DNA of 21,760 nt, taken from positions 1-21,760 of IMG/VR virus record IMGVR_UViG_3300045935_000128, one strand, 5' to 3'. This document shows, piece by piece, positions 3,212 to 21,353 of the stretch. Each line of letters starts with the position of its first letter. Position 1 is the first letter of the stretch. The notes under the pieces were generated by a model. That model ran no database searches and had not been told where the DNA came from. It saw nothing but the letters and a program-made list of their open reading frames with translations. Both the position numbers and the translations under genes were made by a program. Source of the stretch: a virus.

Positions 3212-3568
3212 TTAGCGCCCCGGTGGCGGTGCCTGCGAGCCAGCAGTGCCCAGTGGCGGTGACTGCGGGGCCTGCGGCGCCTGCGGCAATCGAGTGACGA
3301 CGGCGCTGGCGATCAGGTCGATGGTGTCGCTGCTGATCCCGGTCGCCTTGGCAAGCTCGTATTTGCCGCGGTTGTGCAGCCACTTAAAGAGCAGCGCGGC
3401 GATGCCGCCCACGATGGTCAGGAAGTAGGCCGCTGCTTCGGCTGGGGCGAGGTCGTAGTTGAACCACGACTTTGCCTTGGCGGCGACGAAGCCGCCAAAG
3501 AGCAGTGCCAGCGGGCCGAGCAGGAATGCCACCCACCGGCCGATGTTGGAGTTCTCGTCAGGTGCCAC
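3212..3568 (-). CDS. Probable holin, two membrane segments
   Basis: 118 residues, GTG start preceded by AAAGGA seven bases upstream. Two membrane helices are evident, about residues 11-30 (RWVAFLLGPLALLFGGFVAA) and 43-63 (AEAAAYFLTIVGGIAALLFKW), followed by a basic segment and a Pro/Gln/Ala-rich tail (about 92-118). Two membrane segments, a polar C-terminus, and a position directly after two cell-wall hydrolase genes fit a phage holin that opens the membrane for the endolysin. The gap to the upstream gene is 14 bases. Another small membrane protein of the lysis group cannot be excluded. Confidence 0.68.
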   Translation of the reverse strand: MAPDENSNIGRWVAFLLGPLALLFGGFVAAKAKSWFNYDLAPAEAAAYFLTIVGGIAALLFKWLHNRGKYELAKATGISSDTIDLIASAVVTRLPQAPQAPQSPPLGTAGSQAPPPGR

Positions 3569-3582
3569 GAATCGTCCTTTCC

Positions 3583-4002
3583 CTAGTTTGCGACCTCGTG
3601 AGCTTCAAGCTTCGCGAGCGATTGGCGGCCTTTCTTTATGTCGTCGAGCACCTCGAAGACGAGACCGCCGGCCGTCCCCCAGTCCGATTTCCCCACGGCT
3701 TCGATGACCGCCGTAGCCGATGCGTTCTCGCGCAGCGCCTTGACGATCCTCTCGTAGCCGTGGCCTTTGAACTTCAGGGTCTTCACCATCGCGCTGATGC
3801 CGATTTGCGGGGTCGGGTAGTTCTGCACGTCGGCCGAGTTGAAGCGCGTCGAGCCCGGCATGTGCAGGGTCGTGTTCAGCGGGTTGTTTTTGACCGTCCC
3901 GCCCTCGGCCTGCATCCACGCCATGAAGGCACGGCGGCTGTGCAAGGTCGCCGGAGCATCCAAGCCCTTGAGAACGCCTCGAGCGAAGTCGCCGCGGTTC
4001 AT
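3583..4002 (-). CDS. Lysozyme-like peptidoglycan hydrolase or lysis-associated protein
   Basis: 139 residues; the ATG directly follows the TAG of the endolysin gene. The core FMAWMQAEGGTVKNNPLNTT (about 26-45), followed by NSADVQNYPTPQIGISAMVKTL (about 55-76), is a pattern I associate with lysozyme-like domains in actinophage tail and lysis proteins: W-x3-E-G-G, then NPLNTT, then VQNY with G-I-x-A-x-x-x-T-L. E33 would be the candidate catalytic acid. It has no signal peptide, so export would depend on the holin or on virion delivery. It sits between the M15-type endolysin and the holin, suggesting two lysins with different bond specificity. The fold call is moderate; catalysis is inferred. 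Confidence 0.6.
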   Translation of the reverse strand: MNRGDFARGVLKGLDAPATLHSRRAFMAWMQAEGGTVKNNPLNTTLHMPGSTRFNSADVQNYPTPQIGISAMVKTLKFKGHGYERIVKALRENASATAVIEAVGKSDWGTAGGLVFEVLDDIKKGRQSLAKLEAHEVAN

Positions 4003-12787: not shown

Positions 12788-13584
12788 CAGGCCGGTTCGT
12801 TCTGGGCGACGGCGCCGACTTGGTCGCGGCCAGGGAAGGCGGTGCCGCCGCCGCTTTCCTCATCGGGGATCTTGACTCGGTCGCCGACTTTGAAGCGCTT
12901 GGAGTCGACAAGCGGATCGTTGGAGCCCCAGTTGGTCATTCCGTTCTCCTGGGCGATGTTGCGCCAGTAGCCCTCGTTGCCGAGCAGCTCGCGGGCAAGC
13001 GAGCGCCAGGTGTCGTTGGCGTCGAGGGCATGGGTGGTCGGGCGCTTGGAGCCGAAGCGGTGTTTGCGCTGGCCGACCGTCAGCGGGTTGTACTCGGAGA
13101 AGTCGATCGTGTAGTAGCGGGCATCGGGCTCGCCGCGGCGGATCGCCCGCGAGATCCGCCTGATGTTGGCGTAGCCGGAGAACTCGGCGAAGTCGGCGGA
13201 GGGCCTGTTGACGATCAGCAGGTCGAAGATCGCGCGGCGGCGGCCGGTGCGCAGCAGTTCGCGTTGCAGCTTCTCGGGCGAGACGTCGGGCATCGCCAGC
13301 CAGCGAGGGCTCCACGTCAGGCTCATCGTTTCGCCGGTGAACTTGGCCTGTGGGCGGGCGTTGCCAGGGGCGGGGCTGGAGTGCTCGCCGCCGCCGACGG
13401 TCGGGAAGTCTTCCCACGGGTATTCCTCGTCGACCGCGAATTCCTCGCCGATCATTACCGGCAGCGTCAGCGGCGTGCGCAGGACGTGGGCCGGGGTGAG
13501 GTCGTGAACGGCCCTGAGGCGCGCGTGCAGGCCCGGACGCGGCAAGTTGTCGCCTCGGTCGCCTTGTCCCTGCGCCCTAGCCAC
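12787..13584 (-). CDS. XkdP-like baseplate protein with C-terminal LysM domain
   Basis: 265 residues from a GTG that overlaps the tape-measure stop, with GGAGAG about eight bases upstream. The first 45 residues look unstructured, so a later start is possible. The middle (about 85-165: GETMSLTWSPRWLAMPDVSPEKLQREL, then AIFDLLIVNRPSADFAEFSGYANIRRISRAIRRGEPDARYYTIDF) is alpha/beta. Residues about 183-240 form a LysM-type peptidoglycan- or chitin-binding fold (ALDANDTWRSLARELLGNEGYWRNIAQENGM, ending FKVGDRVKIP). PBSX xkdP and the T4 gp53 role match: a LysM-bearing baseplate part between the tape measure and the hub. Confidence 0.8.
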   Translation of the reverse strand: MARAQGQGDRGDNLPRPGLHARLRAVHDLTPAHVLRTPLTLPVMIGEEFAVDEEYPWEDFPTVGGGEHSSPAPGNARPQAKFTGETMSLTWSPRWLAMPDVSPEKLQRELLRTGRRRAIFDLLIVNRPSADFAEFSGYANIRRISRAIRRGEPDARYYTIDFSEYNPLTVGQRKHRFGSKRPTTHALDANDTWRSLARELLGNEGYWRNIAQENGMTNWGSNDPLVDSKRFKVGDRVKIPDEESGGGTAFPGRDQVGAVAQNEPA

Positions 13585-16500
13585 CGATCAGCTCTCCGTC
13601 GCGGACATCGTCTGATTCCTGCAATGCCTTGGTCAGCTCGCGGGCGGCATGGCGGCCGATCTCTTTGCCAACCCGCTCGGTGTCCTGTGCGCCGTGGACC
13701 GTCACATGCCCCATGTTGACGTTGACTTCGACTGGGTGGTGACCACCGGCGGTGCGACCGGCTCGGCTGCGTTTAGGCGTCGGGGTAATCGTCACATCCT
13801 CTGGGCCGGACTCGCCAACACCGATGAGGGTCGGCCCACTGACGCGACCGGAGCCGCCACCGGCGAACCAACCGGCGAAGCCTCTAGACGCGCCGCCGCG
13901 CTTGCGACCGCCGGTGGCGTAGCCGGTGCTGCTCGGCCCGACGATATGGCCATATCGATCGAACATATAGTTGATCGCCGCGGCAGCGTTGGCGACTGGG
14001 TTGAGGATGCCGCCGCGCAGGCCCGGCTCCCGATACTGGGCGAAGGTTTCGGGGATGGTCTGAAGCAAGCCCTGCGAGGGGTGACCTGCGGCGGCGTTTG
14101 AGTCCGTGTTGTTGATGGCTTTCGGGTCGCCGTCGGACTCCTGCATGGCGCGGCCCCGCAGCGCCTCAAGGTTGGCAGCGGAGTAGTGCCCGGTGATTCG
14201 TAGAGCGCGCGTCAACCATGCGTTTAGGCCGCCAGCGGTGTTGGCGGCGCGGCCCCGACCTCCGCCTCCACCGATCAGCTTGTTGAGGTTGCGGCTCATC
14301 CCGGCCGCTGTCAGATCGCTGCTGCGGTTAGCCAGCGCGCCAGGGACGCCGCCTAGACCTGAGTGACGGCCACGCAGATGTATTGCCTGCTGACGGCCCC
14401 CCGCGACACCTCGTAGCCCGCCACCGTTCTTGCCCCCCACCATCCGAGCGCCCTGCGGGAAGAAGCCGATGTGGACGTGGTCGGAGTGGCCACCGATCGC
14501 GCCGGGCACTTTGTGGCCCTGGTCGTAGTAGTAGCCCATCGGGTCGTAGAAAAGCTCGTTGATCGACCCGTGGAAGTCGCGCCAGGCGGTGAGGAAGTAG
14601 CGGCGCATTTGCGCCGCGCTCCCGGTGATATCGAAGGCGAGTCCTTGGTAGTGGAGACTGTCCGAGACGTGGCCTGAACTCGGGATGCCGCCGTGGCCGG
14701 GACCGCCGCTGACGCCCATGCCCATCCGTTCGGCGAGGTTGGCAGCAGGGCCGATGCCTCGCCCGCCAGTGGCGAAGCGCCGGCCACCGACGGCGTAGTC
14801 AGCGGCGGCCGAGGGCATCTGCCAATGGGCGCGGTTGTTCATCGCCACCATGCCGCCGAGGGTCTTCCCGGCACGGCCGAGGATGCTGTTGACTTGGCGC
14901 TCGGTGTGGCTTGGGACTACCAACTCGTTGCCCGCGCCCCACTGATTGTTCCCAAGGTAGACGTTGTCGCGTTCGGAGCCGTTGGCGGGGACCGGTAGGC
15001 GACCGCCCCTCGCGTTGCCCATGCCGGGAATTTGGCTCGTAGTTGGCGGAGCTGGCGTCCCGTGGCGGTGTGCTTCAAACGCTTCTTTGCTCTTGGCTCT
15101 CGACGGGTGACCGACCTCGGCTTCGCGAACCAACCCTTTGGAGTCGTGGGGCGAGAAGCCCATCTGGCGCAGGATTGAGAAGGCGCGCTGCTCGAGCGCG
15201 GTGAAGTTTTTGTTGGCTTCCTCGTAGGCGCGCTGGGTGGCGGTGCCGATCAGGTCGGCGACCTTGCCCCACGACTTCGCTGAGACATCGACGATGTTGC
15301 CGTTGATGACGCGGATTTCGGCCCCGGCCTTGCGCAGGCGGTTTTCCATCTGCTCGGCCATTTCGTTGTAGGCGTGTTTGAGCTTGGGGTTGGCCTTCGC
15401 CACTTCGGCCGCCCAGTCGAGGCCCATCTGCGAGAACTCTTTGCGGGTGCGGCCGTGCATCCGCGAGACGCGGCGTTCGATCGTGCCAAGGGTGCGCTCG
15501 TAGTTTTTGCTCGGGTCGGCACCGTGGCGAGCGCGAATATCGAAGGCGCCGGTGATATCGCCAAGCGCCGAGGTCGACGCCGAGCTGACCCGTTCGTCGC
15601 GTAGCGCTTTGAGTTGCCTGCCGAGGGCTTCAGCCTCTTTGCGCGCGGAATCGCTGACTTCGGTCGTGTTCGGCTGGCCGAGGTCGACGCCGAGGACGCT
15701 TCCCGCTCCGAAGGGCTTTTGAAGGAAGCCCTTAGCGCCGCCGGGAGCCTGCGGAGTGAGCAGGCGATGGCGCTTGGCGCGCGTCGCTTCGATCTGCGCC
15801 TGTAGGCCACCCGCACCGCCGCCGTAGCGTTCGGCGTAGTAGGCGCTGACAAGCGCTGCGTGCCGGTTCGCTTCGTCGGCCTTTTCGGCTGGCGTTTTCG
15901 GCATTTCGACCAGCCCGAGCGTGGCGCTGGACACGCCGGCCTGAATCCGATCATGGAGGTTGCCTTGGTAGCTAGCGGCACCGAGGCCACCGGCCAGCAG
16001 GGCGTAGGGTCCGAACCGTCCAGCGAATCCCCGGCCGAACATCGCGCCGCGCTCGGCGGCACCGCTAGCTCCAAACCCGGCAACCGTCGAGGCGATCCGC
16101 CCGCGACCGAAGCCACGGGCGAGACCATAGGTCTCGTGGTCGAACATGCGTGCTGTCGCCGAGACGCCGCCGGCCGCTGCGCCGCCTCCGAGAATTATCG
16201 GCGCACCGGCGGTGGTGCCAGTGGTGCCCGCCGGTCCGGCAATGCGTCCGCCAAGGCCGCGAGTGGCGCTGCGGATACCGGCGCCGCCAGCGAGCAGGAA
16301 CGGTAGCCCCCCCGGCGTTAGCAGGCCCGCATTTCCGGCGAGGCTGACGAGGGAGGAAAGCTGGTCGAGCATCGGTCCTAGGTCGCGTCCGATGGTCCAA
16401 ATGAGGTGCGCGATTTTGCCGACGGCGCTGGCCAGCTTCTCAGTCGATTCGACCGAGTCATGGAAGAATTCTTGGACCTGGCGCGGGTTGCGCTCCACCC

Positions 16501-17914
16501 ATTTGTCCCAGACTTCGAGTTGCTCGGTGAGGTCGCCGACGAGCGACTGCCCTTCACCCGCTCCGGCGCTGCCGAGATCCTTGAGCAATTCAAAGGTGGC
16601 GCCGGTCAGTTTGCCCCAAGTCTTGAGTTGACCTACCCAACCCGCCATATCGTCGCGGACGCCCTTGATGTCTTTGCTCGAGGTGTGCCAGCCGCCAGTC
16701 CATTTCTCAAGGAAGACCAGTCCTTCGTGGAAGAAGGGGCGAGCGGCGCGCGAGAGGTTCATCAGCGTGCCGGTGATGTTTTCGGCGATGCCCTCGGTCG
16801 GCCCCAGCGCCGCCTTCGACTCGCGGCCCATCGCCTCGTAGAATTTGCGCGATTCGGGCGAGGCGAGGAAGTCGCCGAGTTTGTTGGCCTGCGGCTGGGC
16901 TTCGTTGAAGAATTCATTGGAGAGACGGGAGAACTGCGGAGTGAGCTGGCGGCCGAGGTTGAGGCCGCGGGTGCCGATCCCGGTGAAGCCGCGCTGCGCC
17001 GGGCGCGTGCTCGACTGGAAATCTTCGACCAGCCCTTCCTTGGCCTTCAGGAATCGAGCCGTGCCGACCGGCGCTTTCTCCAGTTCCATGTTGTAAAGGC
17101 GGTACTTCTGGCGAGCCGCTTCGGAGTTGACCCCGGACTTAACGACCTCTTCGCGGTAGCTTTTCAGCGCTTTGGAGGCGGCTTTAATGCCGATCACCGA
17201 GGACACAGCCACTGGTGCGATCTCTCCCAGCGCAGCCGCGCCAACCCCGGCAGCACCGAGGCCAAGGGTGCCCGCGCCCAGCGCCGCCGCCCCAAGCGAC
17301 CCGCCGACGGCCGTGGTGGCGCCAACCAGCGGCGGGGCCGCGGCGAGTGCGCCGGCAACCAGTGGGTAGGGGATCGCCCCGGCGAAGGGGACACGTAGCC
17401 CTCCACGACCTCCGATGCTCGAACCGCCACCGCCAGAGGGGATTGCGCCAGCGGCAAATGAGGACTGCGAGATGCCGATCCGCGGAGTGGCCACCTCGCG
17501 GCCCAGCGCGTTGATCCGTTTGTGCAGGAGTTCGGTCTGGGCCAGGGCCTCTTCGAACCCTTTGAGATTGATTTTCGGGGTAGCTTTCTCGCGCGAGAGG
17601 CTGTCGAGGTTCTCGCGCAGCAGCGCCACCGAGGAGTCCATGCGCCGGATCGAGCCGACCACCTGAAACTCCGCCTCGCGCGCGTTGCGGCCAATCGAGT
17701 TGAAGGATCGTCGGGCCTGGGAGTCGAGGCGGGCTAGCGAGCGTTCGTAGGCGACGACTTCGGCGACGTTTTTCTCGCTGAAGATCGAGTCGACAGTTTT
17801 GCCCAGTTTGGTGAGGACGAGATCAAGCTGCTCCCCCTCTCGGCGCAGGCGGCGCATGGCCGCCGTGGCCGGACGGTCATTGAGATCGAAGCCGCCGTGA
17901 ACCTCACCGGCCAT
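13577..17914 (-). CDS. Tape measure protein with M15-type peptidase and lytic transglycosylase domains
   Basis: 1445 residues; AGGAGG lies six bases before the ATG. The N-terminal 150 residues are charged and coiled-coil-like. Gly/Ala-rich hydrophobic stretches near 175-250 and again in the middle could cross a membrane. Near 1070-1150 the pattern S-x-H1088-x2-G-x-A-x-D1095, then H1146-V-H1148, fits an M15-type zinc peptidase. Near 1250-1325 is a transglycosylase fold: catalytic E1259 in RAMQES, GLLQ (1282-1285) and AINYMFDRYG. The C-terminal region has GVGESGPEDVTI. The protein sets tail length and is threaded through the tube; with its enzymes it can open the wall on entry. At about 0.15 nm per residue the tail would be at most about 215 nm. 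Catalysis is inferred from motifs. Confidence 0.9.
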   Translation of the reverse strand: MAGEVHGGFDLNDRPATAAMRRLRREGEQLDLVLTKLGKTVDSIFSEKNVAEVVAYERSLARLDSQARRSFNSIGRNAREAEFQVVGSIRRMDSSVALLRENLDSLSREKATPKINLKGFEEALAQTELLHKRINALGREVATPRIGISQSSFAAGAIPSGGGGSSIGGRGGLRVPFAGAIPYPLVAGALAAAPPLVGATTAVGGSLGAAALGAGTLGLGAAGVGAAALGEIAPVAVSSVIGIKAASKALKSYREEVVKSGVNSEAARQKYRLYNMELEKAPVGTARFLKAKEGLVEDFQSSTRPAQRGFTGIGTRGLNLGRQLTPQFSRLSNEFFNEAQPQANKLGDFLASPESRKFYEAMGRESKAALGPTEGIAENITGTLMNLSRAARPFFHEGLVFLEKWTGGWHTSSKDIKGVRDDMAGWVGQLKTWGKLTGATFELLKDLGSAGAGEGQSLVGDLTEQLEVWDKWVERNPRQVQEFFHDSVESTEKLASAVGKIAHLIWTIGRDLGPMLDQLSSLVSLAGNAGLLTPGGLPFLLAGGAGIRSATRGLGGRIAGPAGTTGTTAGAPIILGGGAAAGGVSATARMFDHETYGLARGFGRGRIASTVAGFGASGAAERGAMFGRGFAGRFGPYALLAGGLGAASYQGNLHDRIQAGVSSATLGLVEMPKTPAEKADEANRHAALVSAYYAERYGGGAGGLQAQIEATRAKRHRLLTPQAPGGAKGFLQKPFGAGSVLGVDLGQPNTTEVSDSARKEAEALGRQLKALRDERVSSASTSALGDITGAFDIRARHGADPSKNYERTLGTIERRVSRMHGRTRKEFSQMGLDWAAEVAKANPKLKHAYNEMAEQMENRLRKAGAEIRVINGNIVDVSAKSWGKVADLIGTATQRAYEEANKNFTALEQRAFSILRQMGFSPHDSKGLVREAEVGHPSRAKSKEAFEAHRHGTPAPPTTSQIPGMGNARGGRLPVPANGSERDNVYLGNNQWGAGNELVVPSHTERQVNSILGRAGKTLGGMVAMNNRAHWQMPSAAADYAVGGRRFATGGRGIGPAANLAERMGMGVSGGPGHGGIPSSGHVSDSLHYQGLAFDITGSAAQMRRYFLTAWRDFHGSINELFYDPMGYYYDQGHKVPGAIGGHSDHVHIGFFPQGARMVGGKNGGGLRGVAGGRQQAIHLRGRHSGLGGVPGALANRSSDLTAAGMSRNLNKLIGGGGGRGRAANTAGGLNAWLTRALRITGHYSAANLEALRGRAMQESDGDPKAINNTDSNAAAGHPSQGLLQTIPETFAQYREPGLRGGILNPVANAAAAINYMFDRYGHIVGPSSTGYATGGRKRGGASRGFAGWFAGGGSGRVSGPTLIGVGESGPEDVTITPTPKRSRAGRTAGGHHPVEVNVNMGHVTVHGAQDTERVGKEIGRHAARELTKALQESDDVRDGELIGG

Positions 17915-18172
17915 CTACGCCTCCTGCAACGAACGCCACAGTTCGCCTCTCCAGATCGCTGATACAAGCTGCCGACTCACGCCAAAGAGGCGTCCAACCT
18001 CCGCCTGCGGTTGACCGCTTCTGCGCAGAGAGAGGATCGCTCTCGCTTCCGGCTCAGAGATCTTGGCGCTTCCATGCTGCTCTCCTTGCCAAGTTCTATA
18101 GCGATGGCGCCCCTTGGCCATCATGTCGGCGTCGAAGCGGGGGCGGAGATCAGTTGGAGAAAAGGCGCTCAC
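17915..18172 (-). CDS. Helix-turn-helix remnant of an HNH homing endonuclease
   Basis: 85 residues, GTG start overlapping the stop of the frameshift reading frame as GTGA; its TAG directly precedes the tape-measure ATG. The string DADMMAKGRHRYRTWQGEQHGSAK, followed by a helix-turn-helix (ILSLRRSGQPQAEVGRLFGVSRQLVSAIWRGELW), is what follows the nuclease domain in many phage HNH homing endonucleases. No HNH catalytic part (no His-Asn-His pattern) is present here or upstream. It may be a decayed endonuclease or a small DNA-binding protein kept for another use. Its end contributes the ribosome-binding site of the tape-measure gene, which may keep it in place. Confidence 0.65.
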   Translation of the reverse strand: MSAFSPTDLRPRFDADMMAKGRHRYRTWQGEQHGSAKISEPEARAILSLRRSGQPQAEVGRLFGVSRQLVSAIWRGELWRSLQEA

Positions 18173-19067
18173 TCACGATCTCCTAGCGCTCCGAGAATTG
18201 ACTCCAGGAGATCGTGAGTGGTTGCTTCTATCTCGGCGGCGTGGATGGCGAATGCCTTTTCTACGGCCTCTGCCCGAGACGGCCACGGTGGCTCGTCGAA
18301 GCCCGCCCATGCCTTCGAGGGCGGCACTCCGCGGTGCTTCCATTGGGCAAATATCAACCACGTCGCGCCTTTTCTCCGAACTAGTTTTTTACCGCGTTGA
18401 CCATTTCCCGCTCGGCCATGCCGACCCGGTCGCGGGTCATCCCCGCCATGCGGTCGATCTGCTCGGTGAGCTGCTCGGCGACGCCGGGCTGCAACTTGAA
18501 CATGCGCTCGAAGGCGATGGGGGGAGCTACTGCGTCCCCGATAAAGCCGGGGTCGGTCGGCGTCGTCTCCTTGCCGTTCTCGTCCACCATCTTGTCGGTG
18601 GCCTCGGCGATCTTGGCCGCGTTGAGCTTGGCCCGATCAACCGTGGCGAAGGGACCGACGCCGCTGGTGTGATCGTTTTCGAGCGCTTCGATCCGGCTGC
18701 CATCGAGCTGGTGCATGTGGAACGTCAGCTTCTTGAGGCCCGCCGGCGTGTCAACCATCGCCTCCACTTTGAACGGCTGTGGAGAGGGGTTGCTGAGCAT
18801 GATGTCCAGCGCGCCTTTCTCCTTGGCTCCGGCCCCAGCGGCGTCCTCGTCGGTATGACCCTCGTCGAGCGGTCCACCGGCGGCCTCCTTCAGCCCCTCG
18901 GGTGCGCCTGCGGGTAGGTGGTCGCCCGGCTTGGCCCGATCGTCGTCAACGCCTTCGCTGTGGTCAGGCGTGGGCGGGGTGGGGATGTGGCTGGCTACCT
19001 CGCCCGGTGCCGGCTTGGTCGCCGAGCTGCCGAGCCCTGCTTCCGGGCGGTCTGTCTTCTCGCTCAT
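18169..19067 (-). CDS. Frameshifted long form of the tail assembly chaperone
   Basis: A -1 shift at A AAA AAC (18390-18384), just before the TAG of the short form, joins its 228 residues to 71 more for a 299-residue product. The added frame begins L-V-R-R-K-G-A-T-W-L-I-F and stays open through WKHRGVPPSKAWAGFDEPPWPSRAEAVEKAFAIHAAEIE to a TGA at 18171-18169. Dual chaperones made by -1 shifting upstream of the tape-measure gene are known from lambda G/G-T, P2 E/E' and many other tails; the long form binds the tape measure. No separate start with a ribosome-binding site exists for the added part. Yield cannot be judged from sequence. Confidence 0.8.
18381..19067 (-). CDS. Tail assembly chaperone, short form (XkdN-like position)
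   Basis: 228 residues, ATG with AGGAG seven bases upstream. The first 85 residues are Pro/Gly/Asp-rich and probably disordered. The folded part (about 86-228) is alpha/beta (ALDIMLSNPSPQPFKVEAMVD, LKKLTFHMHQLDGSRIEAL, FERMFKLQPGVAEQLTEQIDRMAGM) and ends with two helices and NAVKN-stop. The position between tube and tape measure and the slippery heptamer at the stop identify it as the tail assembly chaperone, which keeps the tape measure soluble while the tube forms. The start of this ORF lies inside the preceding gene (104-base overlap). Sequence similarity to XkdN is not obvious to me; the call rests on position and the shift site. Confidence 0.78.
   Translation of the reverse strand: MSEKTDRPEAGLGSSATKPAPGEVASHIPTPPTPDHSEGVDDDRAKPGDHLPAGAPEGLKEAAGGPLDEGHTDEDAAGAGAKEKGALDIMLSNPSPQPFKVEAMVDTPAGLKKLTFHMHQLDGSRIEALENDHTSGVGPFATVDRAKLNAAKIAEATDKMVDENGKETTPTDPGFIGDAVAPPIAFERMFKLQPGVAEQLTEQIDRMAGMTRDRVGMAEREMVNAVKN
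18384..18390 (-). other. Slippery heptamer for programmed -1 frameshift
   Basis: Zero-frame codons GTA AAA AAC TAG contain A AAA AAC, one of the classic X XXY YYZ sites, with both tRNAs able to re-pair after slipping one base back. It sits against the stop codon, where a pause would help. I see no strong hairpin or pseudoknot just downstream and no clear upstream Shine-Dalgarno-like booster. Confidence 0.85.
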
Positions 19068-19359: not shown

Positions 19360-19881
19360 CTAGCCCTGGTAGGTGACGATTCCGCCTTCGGCATATTCGA
19401 AGCTGTCGATCGGAGCGTCTGACTCGAAGCTGAAGGCGATATCGCGCTGCAGGTACTGATCCTGCTGGGAGAAGCCGCCCGAGTAACTGAAGATCTGGCA
19501 GTCGCGCAGCGCCCAGCGGGTCTTAGCGCCGCCGGGGGTGCCGATGTCGGCGATCTGGGTGATGATGTTGAAGGTAGGGAACTCGGCTGCGGTCTCCGCG
19601 TCGTTGCGGCGCCGAGCGTCCTGCCAGGACCATTGGTAGCGGCGCCAGCGATCATCGACATCATCAATCCGCATCGTGCCTCGGCGTGCCTCGGCGCCGG
19701 GCTTGAGACCGTCCTGCCAAGTGCCAGGGATCGGCACGGCGATCTGTTCGGTCTCAACCGTCCATTCGATCGAGGTGATCTCGCCGAGCATCTTGCCCTC
19801 TGACCAGACGGTGCCAGCGCGGCCCGAGCGGCGGTTGCGCGCCTTCAGTGAACCTGTGGGTCCGGGGAATCCACCCATCAT
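19360..19881 (-). CDS. Tail tube protein (XkdM-like)
   Basis: 173 residues from the ATG overlapping the sheath stop as ATGA, with a GGAAAGG stretch about four bases upstream; a second ATG follows at once, and a longer ATG at 19908 would lie inside the sheath gene. The sequence begins MMGGFPGPTGSLKARNRR and is strand-rich (GTVWSEGKMLGEITSIEWTVETEQIAVPIPG; TRWALRDCQIFSYSGGFSQQDQYLQRDIAFSFESDAPI), matching XkdM/DUF2001 tube proteins. Stacked rings of it form the inner tube driven through the host envelope when the sheath contracts. Confidence 0.85.
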   Translation of the reverse strand: MMGGFPGPTGSLKARNRRSGRAGTVWSEGKMLGEITSIEWTVETEQIAVPIPGTWQDGLKPGAEARRGTMRIDDVDDRWRRYQWSWQDARRRNDAETAAEFPTFNIITQIADIGTPGGAKTRWALRDCQIFSYSGGFSQQDQYLQRDIAFSFESDAPIDSFEYAEGGIVTYQG

Positions 19882-21353
19882 CGAACCTTTCCGGTACCAA
19901 GCAACCATTTGGTTGTGCGGGCGAAGACCCAGCCGAACTCGAAGACGATCGCCGGTTTGCCGCCGTTGTCGGTGAGCCGGAAGAAGGGCTTTTCATCGGG
20001 CGTTTTGCCGGGCAGGATCAGGTTGCGTTCGATCAGCCCGTCGATTTCTGCCTGACCCTTGTCGCGGACGGCGGCTTCGGCCTCCTCGGTGACGGTGGTG
20101 GGGCCGACGATGTTGCGGTCGCCCCACTCCTTCATCCGGCGGATGTAGAGATCGGCGACGCGGACGATGCGCGGATCGCTGAACAGTTCCAGCGGCAGCG
20201 CCGGGTTGGTGTCATCGACGTAGGTGGTGACGCCGTTGGCGACGACCAGTTCGGCCTCTGGGATCGTCGTGCGGCGGAAGACGGTGAGGCCGTTTTCGGT
20301 AGCCATGTGCTGCTCGTCGGGGGCGATCAGCGAGGTGCCGATCTGCTTCAGCCCGGCAATCGGGACGTTCAGCAGCGACTTGGCTTCGCCGAGGCCGGCG
20401 AGGGCACCGGCGATTCGCGGCGCGAGCTTGGATGTCGAGATGTCCTTGTCGAGGAAGGAGTCGTGGAAGTCGCCGCCGCCGATCGCGATGACGTGCGGGT
20501 CTTCGATTTCGCGGGCGCGTTCGATCCCGTCGGTGAGATCCTCGCCTTCGGGGCCGCCGAAGATCGAGAACACCGGCCGCATCTCTTTGGCCTGGCTCTG
20601 GGTCCAGGCGTAGAGACTGGCGACGATCGCCGAGTCGGTGAGGTCGAAGGGGACAAAAACCGAGAAGTCCTCGAACTCGAGGGCTTCTGTGGCGGCGATC
20701 CACTCTTTCGAGGTGAGGCTTTCGCCGTTGTTGCCACCAGCGAGGGAGGTGCCTGCGGTGGCGGCCAGCGCTACGCCGGTTTCGACCGATTCGGCGACCG
20801 GGATCAGCGACGAGTTGGCGGTCAGCTTTTCGGCCAGCGCTTTAATGTCGGTTTTGGCGTAGCTGAAGCTCTCCTTGCGCACGCCGTCGAACATCACCGT
20901 GAAGCGGGCCTTAGCTTCGTCGGTGGGATCGGCGGCGACCGCGACCGAGATCCGGTCGCCTCGCGTGCCCAGATGCGCGGCGGTCAGTTTGAGGGCGCTT
21001 TTGCCGCCTTCTTTCGTGTTTTTCAGCGTGACGGTTGAGGCTTTGGCGGCTGCAGTTGCCATCCGGTAGGACTTGACCGCACCGGCTGCGGCGTTGCTTT
21101 CGATGCCGGTGCCGACAAAGGCCCCGAGCACGGCGTCGCGACCGGCCGTATCGGAGTCGCCGAAGATGGATTCCCACTCACCGAAGGTTTCTGACTTCAC
21201 GATTTTCTCGGAGCCGAGCGGCCCCCAATCGCAGGTGATTGGGATGGCGACCGTCTGGGCGACTGAGGCAGCGGGACGAACCGTGCGCTGCCCGAGCAGC
21301 GTGATGTAGGTGCCCTCGTTCTCCGGCAGGGTGATCGTGGCCGCGCCGCCCAT
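19878..21353 (-). CDS. Contractile tail sheath protein (XkdK-like)
   Basis: 491 residues; the ATG overlaps the preceding stop as TAATG. The N-terminus (PENEGTYITLLGQRTVRPAASVAQTVAIPITCDWGPLGSEKIVKS), the middle (SVFVPFDLTDSAIVASLYAWTQSQAKEMRPVFSIFGGPEGED, then DPHVIAIGGGDFHDS and LAPRIAGALAGL), and the end (NGVTTYVDDTNPALPLELFSDPRIVRVADLYIRRM, FEFGWVFARTTKWLLGTG) follow the XkdK-type phage sheath. Six-fold rings of sheath contract to push the tube through the host surface. Its presence defines the phage as a myovirus-type. The 491-residue length is normal for the family. Confidence 0.92.
   Translation of the reverse strand: MGGAATITLPENEGTYITLLGQRTVRPAASVAQTVAIPITCDWGPLGSEKIVKSETFGEWESIFGDSDTAGRDAVLGAFVGTGIESNAAAGAVKSYRMATAAAKASTVTLKNTKEGGKSALKLTAAHLGTRGDRISVAVAADPTDEAKARFTVMFDGVRKESFSYAKTDIKALAEKLTANSSLIPVAESVETGVALAATAGTSLAGGNNGESLTSKEWIAATEALEFEDFSVFVPFDLTDSAIVASLYAWTQSQAKEMRPVFSIFGGPEGEDLTDGIERAREIEDPHVIAIGGGDFHDSFLDKDISTSKLAPRIAGALAGLGEAKSLLNVPIAGLKQIGTSLIAPDEQHMATENGLTVFRRTTIPEAELVVANGVTTYVDDTNPALPLELFSDPRIVRVADLYIRRMKEWGDRNIVGPTTVTEEAEAAVRDKGQAEIDGLIERNLILPGKTPDEKPFFRLTDNGGKPAIVFEFGWVFARTTKWLLGTGKVR

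Follow-up and report, generated by a model that had tools for sequence, protein, structure and literature searches.

Phages lambda and P2 slip on the heptamers G_GGA_AAG and T_TTT_TTG, respectively, and their frameshifted tail assembly chaperones, namely gpG/gpGT and gpE/gpE+E', were reportedly described by Xu and colleagues in 2004. In both phages a short chaperone and a minority -1 fusion are encoded upstream of the tape measure gene (PMC5009743). For lambda, the gpG:gpGT ratio is ~30:1, the part common to the two proteins binding the tape measure and the T part binding the tail tube protein (PMC5009743); tandem slippage on X_XXY_YYZ heptamers is reviewed in the same source. The heptamer A_AAA_AAC is used by the archaeal virus HCTV-2 (PMC5009743), adjoins the chaperone stop codon in Acinetobacter phage vB_AbaS_Loki (gp12/gp13; PMC5313236) and lies in the chaperone gene before the tape measure gene in the siphovirus phiCbK of Caulobacter (gp93/gp94; PMC3556154). 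The frameshift device itself is thus widely known from many phages.

Here, we analysed an entire IMG/VR record of 21,760 bases (IMGVR_UViG_3300045935_000128; G+C 65%), hereafter the window, which carries a contractile-tail operon. Its chaperone gene has A_AAA_AAC next to the stop codon, as in Loki, and shares with phiCbK the presence of this heptamer in the chaperone gene before the tape measure gene. Unlike the window phage, both are siphoviruses, and the frameshift is a prediction in Loki too (PMC5313236). With lambda and P2 it shares a short chaperone and a predicted minority -1 fusion upstream of the tape measure, whereas the heptamer sequence differs and no sequence similarity was seen. 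The same sheath-tube-chaperone-tape measure order is found in PBSX-like phages with XkdN-type chaperones (PF08890, Phage_TAC_5), such as phiCD418, Brevibacillus phage Osiris and Geobacillus phage phiOH2, and these also have A_AAA_AAC directly before the stop codon and a -1 extension of similar length that ends before the tape measure gene. The window differs from them in having no PF08890 score, a longer N-terminus rich in Pro, Asp and Glu, a high-GC genome, a slightly longer extension (71 versus 53-70 aa) and the stub of an HNH endonuclease gene before the tape measure gene.

In all likelihood, judging from the sequence, a G/GT-type programmed -1 ribosomal frameshift makes a long tail assembly chaperone in this contractile-tail phage. 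The window is a well-supported but ordinary further example of the device. From it, a phage group that is uncultured and matches no known chaperone family gains a firm gene model; tail assembly would otherwise follow the lambda model.

The tail operon and the 3' end of the chaperone gene

The operon lies on the - strand, in the order sheath, tube, a 127-codon ORF, chaperone, then tape measure and baseplate genes. Its features around the chaperone are listed below, L002 being IMGVR_UViG_3300036818_000088, the single close relative found in IMG/VR.

19878-21353, - strand: tail sheath protein (XkdK-like); PF04984 E 2e-7, PHROG 279 E 1e-44
19360-19908, - strand: tail tube protein (XkdM-like); PF09393 E 2.5e-10, PHROG 365
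18381-19067, - strand: tail assembly chaperone, short form, 228 aa, ending NAVKN*; called from the ORF and its sequence, 71% identity to L002 positions 3315-4001, and its tube/tape measure position
18384-18390, - strand: predicted slippery heptamer A_AAA_AAC; called from sequence and X_XXY_YYZ phase, adjoining TAG 18383-18381
18169-18384, - strand: putative -1 frame extension, 71 codons plus TGA; 83-84% identical in L002, with a codon-position substitution bias
17915-18172, - strand: 85-codon ORF, most likely the C-terminal stub (HTH part) of an HNH homing endonuclease; called from tblastn matches in phages
13577-17914, - strand: tape measure protein, 1445 aa, SLT lysozyme-like domain; PHROG 167 E 8e-30, PF01464

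The chaperone and its extension are hence flanked by the tube (PF09393) and tape measure (PHROG 167) genes, with the 127-codon ORF (19347-18967, - strand) separating tube and chaperone. This ORF overlaps the chaperone gene by ~100 bases in another frame; its L002 equivalent has 128 codons and the same layout, the overlapping part being not clearly conserved. Elsewhere in the window, a DNA methylase gene (PF01555; 10788-10126, - strand) lies among the baseplate genes and overlaps the start of the sheath-initiator ORF if a TTG start is used, while genes for a RecT-like protein and a PD-(D/E)XK nuclease (3045-350, - strand), which lie downstream of the tail genes, may form a recombination pair encoded by the phage.

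The chaperone gene starts at ATG 19067, preceded by AAAGGAG. The preliminary description, made from the sequence alone, had read its 3' end as GTA AAA AAC TAG, with the heptamer A AAA AAC, and this is right to the base (- strand: ...GCG GTA AAA AAC TAG); its coordinates and translation are likewise exact, as are the 71 codons over which the -1 frame stays open past the heptamer (18384-18169, - strand). This frame begins with CTA 18384 and reads LVRRKGATWLIF...LGDRE up to the stop codon TGA 18171-18169, and the predicted fusion, ...NAVKN-LVRRKGATWLIF...LGDRE, would comprise 299 aa. Neither the chaperone (at E<=1) nor the extension matched Pfam or PHROG, and no match to either was obtained by tblastn against phages. 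The AlphaFold model of the chaperone was poor (pLDDT 43), while that of the extension consists of two helices (pLDDT 75, pTM 0.37) and gave no Foldseek match better than E 3.8.

A heptamer followed by an open frame could be a coincidence, with no product made past the TAG: long open frames are common in high-GC DNA, and the -1 frame of the window is also open for 84 codons upstream. The rarity of the heptamer in the window genes speaks against this reading. Over the 6474 in-frame positions of the 21 probable genes, the X_XXY_YYZ pattern occurs ten times, Y being A or T in two of these, and only the chaperone heptamer, which occupies the last two sense codons of its gene, has A or T as both X and Y.

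The extension was also expected to end just before the next gene. It does so, the TGA overlapping GTG 18172 of the 85-codon ORF, but this next gene is not the tape measure gene, which starts at 17914. The intervening ORF resembles HNH endonucleases of phages (tblastn, identity up to 42.6%, E 9e-6), and it matches only the C-terminal half of gp169 of Gordonia phage CherryTomatoes, the catalytic HNH part being absent. No such stub exists in L002, where the ATG of the tape measure gene directly follows the extension stop. We read the 85-codon ORF as, most likely, the degraded remnant of a homing endonuclease, inserted precisely where the extension ends and the tape measure gene begins.

Conservation of the -1 frame in a close relative

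IMG/VR scans with window-derived queries returned the L002 contig only, or nothing. Scans of GTDB likewise returned nothing, or a 17-residue match opposite a Psychrobacter gene reading as excinuclease, which we set aside as due to chance.

Over the 64 ungapped codons that could be compared between the window and L002 extensions, DNA identity is 80% and protein identity in the -1 frame 87.5%. The 38 substitutions are distributed 7/2/29 over codon positions 1/2/3 of this frame, a third-position excess with a binomial p of 7e-8 (29/38), and they leave 24 silent codon changes against 8 that are not; the remaining five frames are conserved worse. Judged on this comparison, the -1 frame truly codes for protein and is under purifying selection. 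The third-position bias and the high protein identity, found in the -1 frame only, count against a chance origin of the open frame, as does the recurrence of the arrangement across the XkdN-type family (see below), and we regard such a coincidence as exceedingly improbable.

The L002 chaperone gene ends CGA AAT TTC TAA and hence has a different heptamer, A_AAT_TTC, directly before its stop codon, at the same place as A_AAA_AAC in the window. The L002 -1 frame opens only 16 codons upstream of this site, and the open stretch contains neither an ATG, GTG or TTG before extension codon 63 nor a second heptamer. In L002, a -1 shift at the heptamer is the only ordinary entry to the conserved frame.

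These observations bear on the possibility that the extension is a separate small gene, translated from its own ribosome-binding site or coupled to termination of the chaperone, for example from TTG 18357. This TTG is codon 10 of the window extension and is preceded by the purine-rich GGAGAAAAGG; it is, however, not conserved, the corresponding codon being CTG in L002, and we take the extension to have no start of its own. Moreover, the conserved block (..TW) begins ahead of the TTG codon, the -1 frame of XkdN-type phages starts LI.. straight from A_AAA_AAC, and both parts form a single ORF in Streptococcus phage EJ-1. A separate gene thus appears quite improbable.

A second way of reaching the -1 frame would be transcriptional slippage, in which RNA polymerase slips on the A run and a minority of transcripts is frame-shifted. 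The site does contain six A residues, and poly-A runs can serve either mechanism (PMC3711429), but known slippage runs are longer (An with n > 7 are counted in PMC3711429). Furthermore, the L002 sequence at the same place, AAATTTC, has no homopolymer longer than three, which makes transcriptional slippage unlikely, and we consider it very improbable, even more so than a separate gene. Ribosomal frameshifting at the heptamer is thereby favoured, and the frameshift in the window is very likely real. Its preliminary description had named homologues without the heptamer or the open frame as what would count against it, and the idea survived this comparison: L002 keeps the frame, with another heptamer at the same place, and among 27 XkdN-type genes with the same position in contractile-tail operons, 26 have A_AAA_AAC with a -1 extension and one has an in-frame fusion.

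A_AAA_AAC and the stop codon in XkdN-type genes

The best phage match of the window sheath is that of Clostridioides phage phiCD418, in which sheath, XkdM, XkdN and tape measure genes follow each other with an unannotated gap, and in which XkdN ends ATA AAA AAC TAA. We assembled a sample of 27 XkdN-type genes (~18 groups at 60% identity), the 3' ends of which were read mechanically; four XkdN-type loci came from using an XkdN pair as IMG/VR query. The alignment of the XkdN family was too diverse to serve as a scan query.

A_AAA_AAC occurs within 6 codons of the stop codon in 26 of the 27 genes. It adjoins the stop codon in 23 of them, is placed one codon before it in two (N159 and Javan336) and six codons before it in BalMu-1; past the heptamer, the -1 frame is open for 53-70 codons in all 26. 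The stop codon that follows the heptamer can be TAA, TAG or TGA, each being present in the sample. The position of the heptamer against the stop codon, which had been put forward as a reason for measuring the site, is nothing unusual; it is the rule among XkdN-type genes (and is found in Loki; PMC5313236). The 27th gene, from Streptococcus phage EJ-1 (L035, 826-1422), carries chaperone and extension in one 198-codon ORF owing to an additional upstream A that its near twin in Javan336 lacks; this base could reflect a fusion that arose naturally or an error of sequencing. None of the records examined for these loci (L013-L039) annotates a joined gene, the extension either having no annotation or being shown as a small ORF of unrelated kind. 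PBSX/XkdN-type tails thus have, in this sample of 27 genes, a nearly invariant A_AAA_AAC-stop element; we found no description of this device for XkdN in the open literature and claim no priority.

Is the window chaperone itself an XkdN? The gene order sheath (XkdK), tube (XkdM), chaperone, tape measure places it at the XkdN position of PBSX-type contractile phages. It lies below the Pfam cut-off for PF08890, with no match at E<=1, and no PF08890 match was found in the 76-kb L002 contig either. Aligned with XkdN by hhalign, the chaperone gave a single-comparison P of 7e-4, reached by none of 200 column shuffles, and the extension a P of 8e-4, also reached by 0/200 column shuffles; the reversed extension scores nearly as high, indicating that composition matters in the extension match. 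An XkdN-family HMM (HMMER) ranked the chaperone ORFs of L002 and the window first of 844 ORFs, but with E-values of 0.4-1.1. Since the window extension was not picked up by an HMM built from XkdN extensions, we do not claim homology of the two extensions. For the chaperone, these comparisons weakly support homology with XkdN, of which we consider it a functional equivalent and possibly a distant relative.

Predicted frameshift mechanism

Most ribosomes would terminate at the TAG and release the 228-residue form, while a minority would move back by one base on the heptamer A_AAA_AAC, where the tRNA for Lys can re-pair completely and that for Asn at two positions out of three. The slipped ribosomes would bypass the TAG and read 71 further codons, giving the 299-residue fusion. 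If the two forms act as gpG and gpGT do in lambda, the tape measure protein would be coated by the part common to both, and tail tube subunits would be brought in by the extension. While the site, the open -1 frame and the selection on it, the exchanged heptamer in L002 and the recurrence of the design in XkdN-type phages are read from the sequences, the slippage itself, how often it happens and what each form does are inferred.

No RNA stimulator is evident in the window, either upstream or downstream of the site, in line with the earlier remark that an obvious downstream structure is lacking (z = +0.2 and +1.2 against shuffles). In L002, the 95 nt of downstream RNA fold more stably than their shuffles (z -2.5), but the main hairpin lies at a distance from the site and is not shared with the window. 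A_AAA_AAG is a far more slippery heptamer in E. coli than A_AAA_AAC (PMC5009743). Frameshifting was lower, in both bacterial and HIV tests, when a stop codon followed the heptamer, and raising the release factor abolished frameshifting with a stop at this place in the bacterial tests (PMC4373837). The frameshifting rate in the window may hence be low. As the stop codon comes right after the heptamer, release factor can compete with slippage; this competition may help set the ratio of the two forms and would presumably suit a low output.

A broader proposal, which we advance tentatively and hold to be more doubtful than probable, is that the signal includes the stop codon right behind A_AAA_AAC, both in contractile tails of the XkdN type and in related ones. 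The ribosome would pause with the stop in its A site, and release-factor competition, not RNA structure, would set the short:long ratio; the heptamer could then be exchanged, as for A_AAT_TTC, while adjacency is kept.

For a search of the product encoded by the window, trypsin would reduce the fusion junction to NLVR, and AWAGFDEPPWPSR is an alternative peptide to seek.
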